DNA of 64,000 nt from Pseudomonadota bacterium (lineage in GTDB: Bacteria; Pseudomonadota; Alphaproteobacteria; Rhizobiales; JAKPQE01). The stretch lies in contig JAKPQE010000113.1 of NCBI GenBank assembly GCA_029572955.1, positions 124,001 through 188,000 on the forward strand, written 5' to 3'. This document shows, piece after piece, positions 11,564 to 13,793 of this stretch. The position numbers and the translations under genes were made by a program. The notes under the pieces are model-generated. The model searched no databases and was not told the DNA's origin. It saw nothing but the letters and a program-made list of their open reading frames with translations. Numbering within the stretch: the first letter of the stretch is position 1; each line of letters opens with the position of its first letter.

Positions 11564-11656
11564 TGGCGGAGACGGAGGGATTCGAACCCTCGATACGGCT
11601 TTTGACCGTATAACGGTTTAGCAAACCGCCGCCTTCAGCCTCTCGGCCACGTCTCC
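11564..11656 (-). tRNA. tRNA-Ser(GCU)
   Basis: Read on the minus strand, the 93-nt gene starts GGAGACGTGGCCGAGAGG. It has anticodon loop TTTGCTAAA (GCU, reading AGC/AGU), a long variable arm typical of tRNA-Ser, the T-loop GGTTCGAATCC, the closing CGTCTCC and an encoded G-CCA end. Confidence 0.96.
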
Positions 11657-11750
11657 GTTGGGGCGAATTCCTACAGGGCGAACCGCCCTGCCGTCAACGC
11701 GCGATATGGAGATTTTCGCGCGCCGGACAAGTGCCGGCGCGCCGCTTCGC

Positions 11751-12335
11751 TCAGCCACCCGCCCCGGCGATGCGCCCGGCGATCGCCTCGACGAGACCGG
11801 GCCCCTTGTCGCGGCCGAGGACCGCCGTCTTCTCCGCCGTGCGGCCCCAGGCGACGACGCCGACGACAGCGAGCGGCGCGGTGTAGAACCAGGCGAGGGA
11901 CGAGAGCGCCGAGGCGACCGCCGAGAGCGCCGCGACATCGCCCGAGACGATGGCGACGACGATCGCGGCGACGAGGGCGATGCCGGTCGAGAACCACACG
12001 ACATTGGCGCCGATGCCCCAGAGCGGGCGCCAGTTGCGCTGCAGCGCCGAGTGCGCGGTCATCTCGCGCCACTGCGTCGCCGCCACGGTTTCGAGCGCCC
12101 GGCCCATGTGTTCGTAGACGATGCCCGGAACGGCCTCCTCGAGGCCGTTGATCGTGGCGACGGTCGCCGCCGGGTCCTTGCCGACCGCCATGTCGATGGC
12201 GTCGGGGTCGACGTCGGTGCCGAGTGCTGCGCCGATCGCCGCGCCGACGGCGGCGCCGGCCGGGCCGCCGAGGGCGCCGCCGACGACCGGCGCGCCGAGA
12301 CCGACGAGCTTCTTGCCGAGTTCCTTCCAGTCCAT
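11751..12335 (-). CDS. 3-TM holin of the gene-transfer-agent type
   Basis: The 194-residue protein begins with a conserved glycine/alanine-rich segment (LGAPVVGGALGGPAGAAVGAAIG). A DPEA-like region, KDPAATVATINGLEEA, follows, then two or three hydrophobic segments near 105-165 and a short basic tail. This layout matches the GTA_holin_3TM family, which makes holes in the inner membrane so that an endolysin can reach the wall. The gene starts 3 nt after the endolysin stop, and its ribosome-binding site GGCGGAGG lies inside the endolysin end. Translational coupling is therefore likely. No phage head or tail gene is nearby. Confidence 0.75.
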   Translation of the reverse strand: MDWKELGKKLVGLGAPVVGGALGGPAGAAVGAAIGAALGTDVDPDAIDMAVGKDPAATVATINGLEEAVPGIVYEHMGRALETVAATQWREMTAHSALQRNWRPLWGIGANVVWFSTGIALVAAIVVAIVSGDVAALSAVASALSSLAWFYTAPLAVVGVVAWGRTAEKTAVLGRDKGPGLVEAIAGRIAGAGG

Positions 12336-12338
12336 GGC

Positions 12339-12998
12339 TCACGCCTCCGCCTTGAGCTTGCCGCCGGAGCGGACGACGAGCCGCCAGGCCGCGAAGACGG
12401 CAAGGGCGGCGAGAACGACGACGCCGGCAACGACGAGGCCGCTGGAGACAGCGCCCTCGGTGTCCGGCTCGGTGGTCACGGCGACGGTTGCGGCGACCGG
12501 TGCGGCGGCGATCGCCGTCGCGGTGGCGATCTTCTCGGCCCCCGCCTTCGCCCTCGACCGGTAGCGGCCGCGGAAGATGAGGTCGGCCTCGGCGGCGCGG
12601 CGGCGGGCGAGACCCTTGACGACGCGGCCGCCGGCCTTGTTCCAGAGCATGAGCTGGCGCTCGGCCGCGGCCATGTCGCCGCGCCGGTAGGACCTCACCC
12701 AGCTCGCCCGGTGAATGGCGCCGGTGTTGTAGTCGAAGGAGACGGCACCGTCGAAAACGTGCTGCGGCACCTCCCCGAGAGCGGCCGCGACGCGCATCTC
12801 GAAGCGGCCGAGATCGCGGGCGAAGATCGCCAGCGCCTCTGCCCGGGTGATCGTCATGCCGGCCTTCGGCACCGGCGGGCCGGCATTGGCGGTGTGGCCG
12901 ACGCCGATGGTGAGAATGCCGGCAACGTCCCGGTAGGCCTTCAGCACCACGCCCTCGTGGCCGGCGATGTCGTCGCGTCCGCGCCCGGAAGTCTTCAT
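12339..12998 (-). CDS. GH24 lysozyme-type endolysin with C-terminal membrane anchor
   Basis: The 219-residue protein opens with a GH24 (T4-lysozyme-like) domain. Catalytic E15 (GHEG), D24 and T30 have the same spacing as the E11-D20-T26 triad of T4 lysozyme. YRDVAGILTIGVGHT and the later DGAVSFDYNTG are family motifs. After residue about 150 comes an Ala-rich linker and then a hydrophobic segment (SGLVVAGVVVLAALAVFAAW) with a basic tail, so the enzyme is probably membrane-tethered. That is unusual for GH24. The start at 12998 has AGAGG 6 nt upstream, and a transcription terminator lies directly in front of it. It cleaves peptidoglycan glycan strands. Confidence 0.88.
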   Translation of the reverse strand: MKTSGRGRDDIAGHEGVVLKAYRDVAGILTIGVGHTANAGPPVPKAGMTITRAEALAIFARDLGRFEMRVAAALGEVPQHVFDGAVSFDYNTGAIHRASWVRSYRRGDMAAAERQLMLWNKAGGRVVKGLARRRAAEADLIFRGRYRSRAKAGAEKIATATAIAAAPVAATVAVTTEPDTEGAVSSGLVVAGVVVLAALAVFAAWRLVVRSGGKLKAEA

Positions 12999-13010
12999 GG
13001 GGAACCTCTC

Positions 13011-13042
13011 GAAAGAAAAAGGGCCGCCCGGATGAGCGGCCC
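13011..13042 (-). terminator. Terminator/attenuator immediately before the endolysin ribosome-binding site
   Basis: On the minus strand a perfect 7-bp GGGCCGC/GCGGCCC stem (13036-13042 with 13021-13027, 8-nt loop) is followed by TTTTTCTTTC (13011-13020). The endolysin ribosome-binding site and ATG (12998) follow at once. It may end the Sel1 transcript or attenuate the lysis genes. Confidence 0.7.
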
Positions 13043-13068
13043 TGCTGGGAAGAAAACGGCTGTCGAAA

Positions 13069-13109
13069 CGACAAGTGCCCGGCGCCGTCACGGCACCGGG
13101 CACTTGTCG
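13069..13109. repeat. Long inverted repeat with perfect 14-bp arms
   Basis: The arms 13069-13082 and 13096-13109 (CGACAAGTGCCCGG and its complement) are perfect. The 13-nt centre is itself partly self-complementary. It stands between the Sel1 gene and the endolysin attenuator. It could act as a first terminator hairpin, an operator or part of an antiterminator. Confidence 0.75.
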
Positions 13110-13222
13110 AGAAGATAGGAATTTATACCTTCAGCAGCGTCGCGGTGTCAACGTCGCGCCCCTCCCCGCCCCACGGGGAGACATGCGTCGGTCGAGACCG
13201 GTCGGCGCCGAGGCCTGTCGGC

Positions 13223-13492
13223 TCAGTGAGTGCGCAGCCACTCGCGGGCTTCGCGCTGGGCGGCGGCGACGTCGGCCGAGGTCATCTCGCTGGCGACTTC
13301 CTGACGGTAGCGCGCGGCATCGCGGTTGCCCTTGGCGGCGGCGAGGTTGAACCACTTGTGCGCTTCGACGAGATCGGTCGAAACGTTGCGCCCGGTCGAA
13401 TACATCATGCCGAGCTGGAAAAACACGTCGCCGGGCGCGCTCTGCATGCCCATCGCGGCGAGATTGACTTCATTGACCTCAAAGCGAGCCAT
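13223..13492 (-). CDS. Small Sel1-repeat (TPR-like) protein
   Basis: The 89-residue protein contains one clear Sel1 repeat, FFQLGMMYSTGRNVSTDLVEAHKWFNLAAAKGN, and part of a second. It has no signal peptide, so it is probably cytosolic. Single-repeat Sel1 proteins of this size are common in Rhizobiales and likely mediate protein contacts. The start at 13492 (MARFEVNEVN) has GGGGAAG upstream; the in-frame extension to 13630 has unlike composition. Strong hairpins follow the stop within 160 nt. Confidence 0.8.
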   Translation of the reverse strand: MARFEVNEVNLAAMGMQSAPGDVFFQLGMMYSTGRNVSTDLVEAHKWFNLAAAKGNRDAARYRQEVASEMTSADVAAAQREAREWLRTH

Positions 13493-13793
13493 GTTACTTC
13501 CCCTGTCCCTTGCTTCCCGTAGTCGTCCGGAGTTCTTCCGGTCGCGTTGCTTTGGACTTTCCTGTCCGATGCTTCGAGGATGCCGGGCACCGCTGAATCC
13601 GTCGTTAAATGACGCGCTTAATTTTCTCAAAACGACTCAAAAACTATTGGTAAATTTCACGAGTCGTTAGCCTTGAAACGCCGGAAAGCCGAGGCTTTTC
13701 CAGCGCGTTGCGGTCGTAACCGCTTCTCAACCATCACCGTTCGGTAACCCTCTTGCGGAAAGTCCGGGAAATTTCCGCGCCGGGCCGGTGCCG
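13493..13793. other. Intergenic region with AT-rich segment
   Basis: This 301-bp gap between Sel1 and the FAD oxidoreductase is AT-rich at about 13600-13670. It includes an interrupted inverted repeat CGACTC...GAGTCG (about 13632-13667), which may belong to the Sel1 promoter. No gene is seen. Confidence 0.4.

Follow-up and report, generated by a model that had tools for sequence, protein, structure and literature searches.

In Rhodobacter capsulatus the endolysin and holin genes of the gene transfer agent (GTA) RcGTA, rcc00555 and rcc00556, are located apart from the GTA cluster. GafA binds to the lysis promoter in this organism (PMC6363796), and CtrA sites in the same promoter were reported as putative half-sites. 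The gafA gene of Hyphomicrobiales is divided into two (PMC9638019). In Caulobacter, GafZ lets the polymerase pass the terminators of the GTA cluster (PMC11150451). Lysis in the Caulobacter GTA system was described to take place without holin and endolysin.

Endolysins in which the enzyme domain comes first and the membrane domain last are known from the phages Enc34, BSPM4 (M4Lys) and Siskin. M4Lys lyses E. coli without its holin. The catalytic family of the Enc34 type is PHA02564, and the C-terminal-anchor arrangement was assumed in the Enc34 paper to occur in Chivirus-like phages only.

The stretch of DNA analysed here, 64 kb in length and referred to as the window, harbours an endolysin gene and a holin-like gene that, like the RcGTA lysis genes, stand apart from the GTA cluster of their genome. 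Control by GafA was established by experiment in R. capsulatus; for the window pair the tie to GTA release is one of sequence. With a probability of roughly 0.7, this pair would be the lysis operon of the RcGTA-type GTA of this bacterium, located apart from the GTA locus.

Endolysin and holin-like protein

The initial annotation described a GH24 enzyme followed at 3 nt by a holin gene. Both open reading frames were found intact on the minus strand with the 3-nt gap between them (Table 1). The enzyme matches PF00959 (Phage_lysozyme; E 2e-30, 106.1 bits at a cut-off of 22.3) in Pfam as well as the PHROG endolysin family (E 4.7e-46), and its Pfam score, catalytic Glu and fold place it in GH24. 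In the structure model residues 1-147 are confident and resemble solved GH24 endolysins (Foldseek); the tail is a helix at low confidence. The Glu15-Asp24-Thr30 triad is spaced as in T4 lysozyme, of which the catalytic positions are presumably 11-20-26. This spacing had been noted before, and it can be added that E15 and T30 are invariant across 7 aligned proteins while D24 varies (Cys in L137 and L138).

Table 1 Features of the lysis gene pair and its surroundings in the window
Feature	Position	Strand	Basis or remark
tRNA-Ser(GCT), downstream border of the interval of the pair	11564..11656	minus	complete gene
Holin-like protein, 194 aa	11751..12335	minus	PHROG; some relatives pass PF11351
GH24 endolysin, 219 aa, predicted C-terminal membrane anchor	12339..12998	minus	PF00959, PHROG, Foldseek
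Endolysin C-terminal transmembrane stretch, residues 186-204, then basic tail	12387..12443	minus	hydropathy
Endolysin catalytic domain, residues 14-137, with E15, D24, T30	12588..12959	minus	Pfam match range, alignments
Terminator-like hairpin with T run	13020..13043	minus	stem ends 21 nt before endolysin start codon
Long hairpin in leader	13069..13109	minus	leader folding
-10 hexamer TATAAA, 18 nt from -35	13122..13127	minus	read by eye
GTA-type promoter element TTGACACCGCGACGCT, including -35 hexamer 13151-13146	13136..13151	minus	matrix score 21.12
Sel1-repeat gene, upstream border	13223..13630	minus	next gene upstream of the pair

The C-terminal membrane segment proposed in the initial annotation is borne out by a Kyte-Doolittle hydropathy of 2.56, and a linker separates this stretch from the catalytic domain. 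The basic tail behind it, common to M4Lys and the window enzyme, favours a C-in orientation with the enzyme directed toward the periplasm, as argued for M4Lys. Identity as a SAR endolysin was rejected, as the protein has no N-terminal signal-arrest-release segment (highest hydropathy in residues 1-60, 1.13).

The membrane anchor was initially expected to make the release mechanism of the endolysin unusual; among related enzymes, the anchor itself is not rare. A C-terminal hydrophobic segment is present in 9/9 measured enzymes of a collection scan and in 8/13 GTA-linked enzymes of an order survey (5/13 are without it), and C-terminal anchors have been described for Enc34, BSPM4 and Siskin. C-terminally anchored endolysins are therefore already known and not unique to the window enzyme. 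In Alphaproteobacteria the predicted anchor is found in another enzyme family, GH24 instead of PHA02564, and occurs in GTA clusters as well as in prophages and phages. The phage isolate RcWaterboi (RcapMu group) also has a GH24 enzyme with a hydrophobic C-terminal segment, 45% identical to the window enzyme; its holin start overlaps the endolysin stop, and in the enzyme tree it is placed in a neighbouring group together with a Kaistia GTA enzyme. The window enzyme, a GH24 protein with a C-terminal anchor, differs in type from rcc00555, which we take to be a GH108-type enzyme. Among the Foldseek matches of the endolysin is the muramidase domain of SpmX of Caulobacterales (6h9d, rank 13), with phage endolysins ranking higher. 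SpmX has C-terminal membrane segments; to our knowledge it is a polar cell-cycle protein without a holin partner.

The second gene had been annotated as a GTA-type 3-TM holin, and this name can be kept in part only. The protein matches phrog_3427 (holin) at E 1.6e-4 and more strongly phrog_1544 (E 1.4e-7), a family without known function. No match to PF11351 (GTA_holin_3TM) was obtained at 0.001, and hydropathy indicates two clear hydrophobic segments (112-130 and 144-162), not three. The fold model is poor (pLDDT 50). A paralogue in a prophage of the same genome, on C40, scores 22.0 against PF11351 (cut-off 24.8), and 3 of 5 other relatives pass (L137 38.7, L059 32.6, L130 30.5), L136 (24.6) and L109 (18.5) staying below. 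The assignment rests on these relatives and not on a Pfam match of its own, and the protein is therefore referred to only as holin-like, related to PF11351.

Locus of the pair

Among ten neighbouring genes no phage family was detected with Pfam, nine having cellular or uncharacterised families and one being without match, in agreement with the earlier remark that no other phage gene is near. The pair is thus neither inside nor beside other phage genes, as a prophage lysis module would be. Around the same tRNA-Ser in 29 loci of relatives, Sel1 was clearly matched at a distance of at most 0.9 kb in seven (more weakly in L043), and no match to the pair was found in any of the 29. A same-family genome has a response-regulator-like gene at this position. 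Because the tRNA-Sel1 interval of the relatives is without the pair, its position seems to reflect local acquisition in this lineage. The interval between Sel1 and tRNA-Ser(GCT) (window 11656-13223 and L040:187-1040) varies among genomes in length as well as content. The possibility that the pair is a remnant of an element integrated at tRNA-Ser was discarded in view of the complete tRNA, the position of the pair on its 5' side and the fact that relatives share only the Sel1 border.

GTA cluster and prophages of the same genome

The initial annotation advised a search for a GTA cluster elsewhere and made its reading dependent on the presence of a GTA or prophage in the genome. Such a search revealed a GTA cluster and two further regions, one a prophage and one prophage-like, and the genome harbours three GH24 genes in total. 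The RcGTA-type cluster, on C150, comprises terminase, portal, prohead protease, capsid, tail tube, DUF2460, hub, NlpC/P60 and GTA_TIM genes and includes the sole Phage_capsid match of the genome. Numbers of GTA genes (g15 and the like) are used here on the assumption that they follow gene order.

A podovirus-like prophage is located on C40 (within 56000-75999) and includes genes for a terminase, head-tail adaptor, tail, internal virion protein, anti-repressor and tail fibre. Behind the tail fibre gene stands a lysis pair of which the enzyme (C40:66980-67636) is 84% identical to the window endolysin and the holin 67% identical to the window holin-like protein, with an extra small ORF between the two genes. 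Near the edge of this prophage a partial tRNA-like stretch was read, where ARAGORN calls no tRNA. The window pair could, in view of this close copy and of the interval of the relatives being without the pair, derive from the lysis cassette of a C40-like prophage, left behind or transplanted, and be unconnected with the GTA, having been kept by chance or acting in trans for the prophage. Such an origin is considered unlikely. The likeness to C40 is confined to the coding sequences, the flanks being different, and no other phage family is present near the window pair.

C136 (1-19000) carries an RcGTA-like tail module (g11-g15 like) with a GH24 gene, lacking an anchor, between g12 and g13. Its g15-like gene is shortened, and the region is a second, prophage-like relative of the GTA.

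A stand-alone protein on C125 (19493-21163) joins M15 peptidase, GH108 and PG_binding_3 domains; its C-terminal stretch is weakly hydrophobic (1.69). This protein is a possible second GTA endolysin. The GTA might even be released by it, with the window pair serving another programmed lysis, for example one that releases protein or DNA in the manner of type 10 secretion. The joined domains, together with homologues of the GH108 part behind GTA_TIM in 7/40 relatives, speak for this division of tasks. It is nevertheless rated very unlikely, as none of the genes next to the window pair is an evident cargo gene and the best sites of the C125 locus include no GTA-type promoter box.

Lysis slot behind GTA clusters of relatives

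Gene order was surveyed in 199 genomes of the order. GTA_TIM was found in at least 142 of these and a GH24 match at 1e-12 in 44, the own genome included. At least 14 of 52 non-self GH24 matches (counted by eye) lie behind GTA_TIM, within 6 kb and on the same strand and contig, and G150, with g15 at the contig edge, is a fifteenth case. An even spread over 4-Mb genomes would by estimate give ~0.1 such matches.

A pattern-based scan of a named genome collection yielded 10 loci. The order g15, DUF2793, GH24 enzyme with transmembrane segment, response regulator is present in 6/10, with PepSY before the regulator in 5; DUF2793 is a GTA tail fibre (PMC10883770). L138, L139 and L142 have no GTA match at the locus. 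The own GTA cluster shows g15, PepSY and regulator directly following each other, so that its lysis slot is empty. Likewise, no lysis gene match was found between DUF2793 and PepSY in G011, where the slot seems empty. For the same-family genome G001 the contig with the GTA stops shortly after the DUF2793 match.

Breoghania corrubedonensis (L136) and Prosthecomicrobium pneumaticum (L137) have GTA-slot cassettes similar in make-up to the window pair, in which a GH24 endolysin with transmembrane segment is likewise followed by a related holin. Their catalytic domains are 65-66% identical to that of the window enzyme. Unlike the window pair, both cassettes lie before PepSY and regulator genes. The g15 gene is seen in L136 only, L137 consisting of enzyme, holin, PepSY and regulator at a contig end. 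The Breoghania enzyme has an added PG_binding_1 domain, which was not found in the window endolysin by Pfam. In G060 a related endolysin and holin stand behind the GTA cluster, with a gene of opposite orientation in between.

Descent of the endolysin

In a tree of 43 enzymes, including L081 (the enzyme of G149) and L138, the window and C40 enzymes are sisters (support 100/99). They belong to a clade of eight (support 96/84), in which they are joined by five GTA-slot enzymes and by the prophage enzyme of G149. Four of the GTA-slot enzymes were seen behind g15 and L137 was assigned by its downstream genes. G149 carries a second C40-like prophage, related in its large virion protein at 27% identity.

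Several alternative groupings were compared. Not rejected were a clade of the window, C40 and L081 enzymes (p 0.07), a clade of the five GTA-slot enzymes (p 0.14) and a clade of window, C40 and the five GTA-slot enzymes without L081 (p 0.14). With the tree leaving out L081, a rejection at p 0.006 concerned L130, L138 and L139 only, and a group of six enzymes with Kaistia was rejected (p 0.008). GTA-linked GH24 enzymes as a whole are not one clade, the tree requiring 8 label changes of which at least 5 are forced by well-supported branches. Judged from these sequences, GTAs and phages seem to have exchanged GH24 endolysin genes.

The direct donor of the window pair may have been a phage, because the nearest copy and the G149 enzyme are both prophage enzymes and their union with the window enzyme was unrejected. 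The presence of the enzyme of the G149 podoprophage in this clade also speaks for the prophage-cassette origin considered above; 5 of the 8 clade members being GTA-slot enzymes speaks against it, as do dN/dS values of the pair versus C40 that are below 1 (0.22 and 0.41). GC3 is weak evidence, since the values of the pair (0.91 and 0.93) fit the own GTA genes (0.89-0.92) but also host neighbours (six genes, 0.72-0.94); the C40 pair has 0.85-0.89 and seven other C40 genes 0.64-0.87.

GTA-type promoter element

The initial annotation recommended a search for GafA- or CtrA-like sites upstream of the pair. A GTA-type promoter is present there, its spacer exceeding that of most GTA promoters compared by 1 nt. 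The best 16-mer shared by the leader of the pair and the own GTA leader is TTGACACCGCGACGCT / TTGACAGCGTGACGGT, a likeness that alone is no better than in some shuffles. The element was found at 10 to 12 of 12 fixed positions in 9/16 GTA upstream regions of relatives in which the terminase could be placed.

A 16-nt matrix was built from nine GTA clusters of relatives, none of its sites coming from the own genome. When loci of the own genome were scanned with it (392,418 positions), the own GTA promoter ranked first (24.4) and the leader of the pair second (21.1, on the coding strand), the third site scoring far lower (15.0). The pair thus shares its promoter element with the GTA cluster. Shuffling the 224-nt leader gave a score of 21.1 in 0/20,000 cases; when the 64-kb window was shuffled, 5/1000 reached this score at some position. 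The training site L163 scores just 8.5 when left out of the matrix. Among 123 partly overlapping loci from other sources (1,511,310 positions) only two sites score 18 or higher. One of these, L110:1097, sits before the capsid gene of the GTA cluster of Bauldia litoralis (G016), and the other, L117:15284, is inside an ORF near another GTA cluster and is probably due to chance. Bauldia litoralis has two GTA-type elements, L110:1097 (25.8) and L148:1271 (19.6), and its GTA cluster may be transcribed as two units.

The nine training regions had been chosen from the 16 by their similarity to the pattern suggested by the window and the own GTA, and fresh GTA clusters were therefore tested. Of 20 fresh regions, 4 were set aside because they did not extend over the upstream side of the terminase or gave no terminase match. 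A site of at least 20.7 is present in 10 of the 16 usable clusters (10/20 overall), in all cases on the strand of the cluster and 524-1849 nt before the terminase match. The remaining usable clusters gave 16.5 (one) and at most 15.5 (five). At the C40, C136 and C125 loci no site scores above 13.3; a promoter at C136 may be missing because that stretch begins at a contig end. The box at the window pair, with none at the C40 loci, is a further argument against a prophage cassette.

In a free motif search in the GTA upstream regions of relatives, an AT-rich box preceding the -35 made up most of the top motif; the own GTA promoter ranked 11th and the window pair was absent among the 16 matches listed. 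A box of this kind, starting with ATAGGAA, stands before the -35 in the GTA upstream regions L146, L147, L155, L157, L161 and L010. At the pair a similar AT-rich box, ATAGGAATTTATACC, is found in reverse orientation over the -10 (window 13115-13129, plus strand). A sigma-70 promoter scan of the region upstream of the pair reported 0 promoters, because it accepts only T as the last base of the second hexamer. No CtrA site is present in the leader, the one degenerate match being inside the Sel1 coding region, and CtrA-type control of the pair was rejected on this ground. A CtrA site was not taken as defining in Hyphomicrobiales, since the sites in R. capsulatus are putative half-sites. No description of the promoter element or of the lysis slot was met in the literature consulted.

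Leader and terminator

The leader of the pair folds with z = -5.3. Its 3' end resembles that of the own GTA leader (47 columns, 79%, E 0.001). T-run hairpins of -12 kcal/mol or lower occur in the GTA leaders of 6/13 relatives and in the own GTA leader, versus 22/200 control pieces. A terminator within 25 nt before the start codon was found for the window endolysin and for 6/40 other located endolysin genes, one of these from a phage. As a general sign of lysis genes it is unspecific and was dismissed. The terminator at the window pair separates the promoter from the endolysin gene, which by analogy with the Caulobacter GTA suggests antitermination.

Just before the endolysin (13006-13079, minus strand) the suhB/mmgR small RNA family is matched below threshold, with 24.9 bits at a gathering score of 41. 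On the strength of this Rfam match, promoter and hairpin could be taken for a suhB/mmgR-type small RNA gene that ends at the terminator, with the lysis genes merely behind it. This is extremely unlikely: such a gene was not found in the tRNA-Ser loci of 13 relatives (E 0.1), T-run hairpins are also a feature of GTA leaders, and the box is nearly confined to GTA loci.

Proposed role in GTA release

The detached GTA lysis cassette envisaged by the initial annotation is thus supported at the level of sequence. The genome has a GTA cluster with an empty slot behind it, the clade of the enzyme consists mostly of GTA-slot enzymes, and a GTA promoter element and a terminator precede the pair. As pair and own GTA cluster have a promoter type in common, the pair most likely opens the cell for GTA particles. 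Counting against this role are the 5/1000 window shuffles, the weak held-out clusters and the free motif search that missed the pair, as well as the lack of a CtrA site, the rival C125 endolysin, the C40 prophage copy, the G149 prophage enzyme of the same clade, the local acquisition and the precedent of the Caulobacter GTA, for which lysis needs neither holin nor endolysin.

In the proposed mechanism, an activator of the GTA, the split GafA of Hyphomicrobiales or a like protein, would act at TTGACA-NCGNNACGNT when GTA production starts. The polymerase would then pass the leader terminator by antitermination, and endolysin and holin would be made. The holin would open or depolarise the inner membrane, allowing the tail-anchored lysozyme to get to the wall. 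The cell would burst and GTA particles would be released.

It was further hypothesized, with odds only a little better than even, that TTGACA-NCGNNACGNT is a recognition element of the GTA regulon in Hyphomicrobiales which overlies the -35 and is followed by an antitermination leader, that the pair is a detached second operon of this regulon, and that tail-anchored GH24 enzymes have repeatedly been exchanged between GTAs and phages of the order at one lysis slot. Outside Rhodobacter and Caulobacter, GTA release would in some genomes involve a lysis slot behind the cluster with a GH108-type or a tail-anchored GH24 enzyme. If the hypothesis is true, the unlinked GTA genes of hundreds of genomes could be listed with a single short pattern, the element predicting which genes are switched on with the GTA and the leader predicting antitermination.
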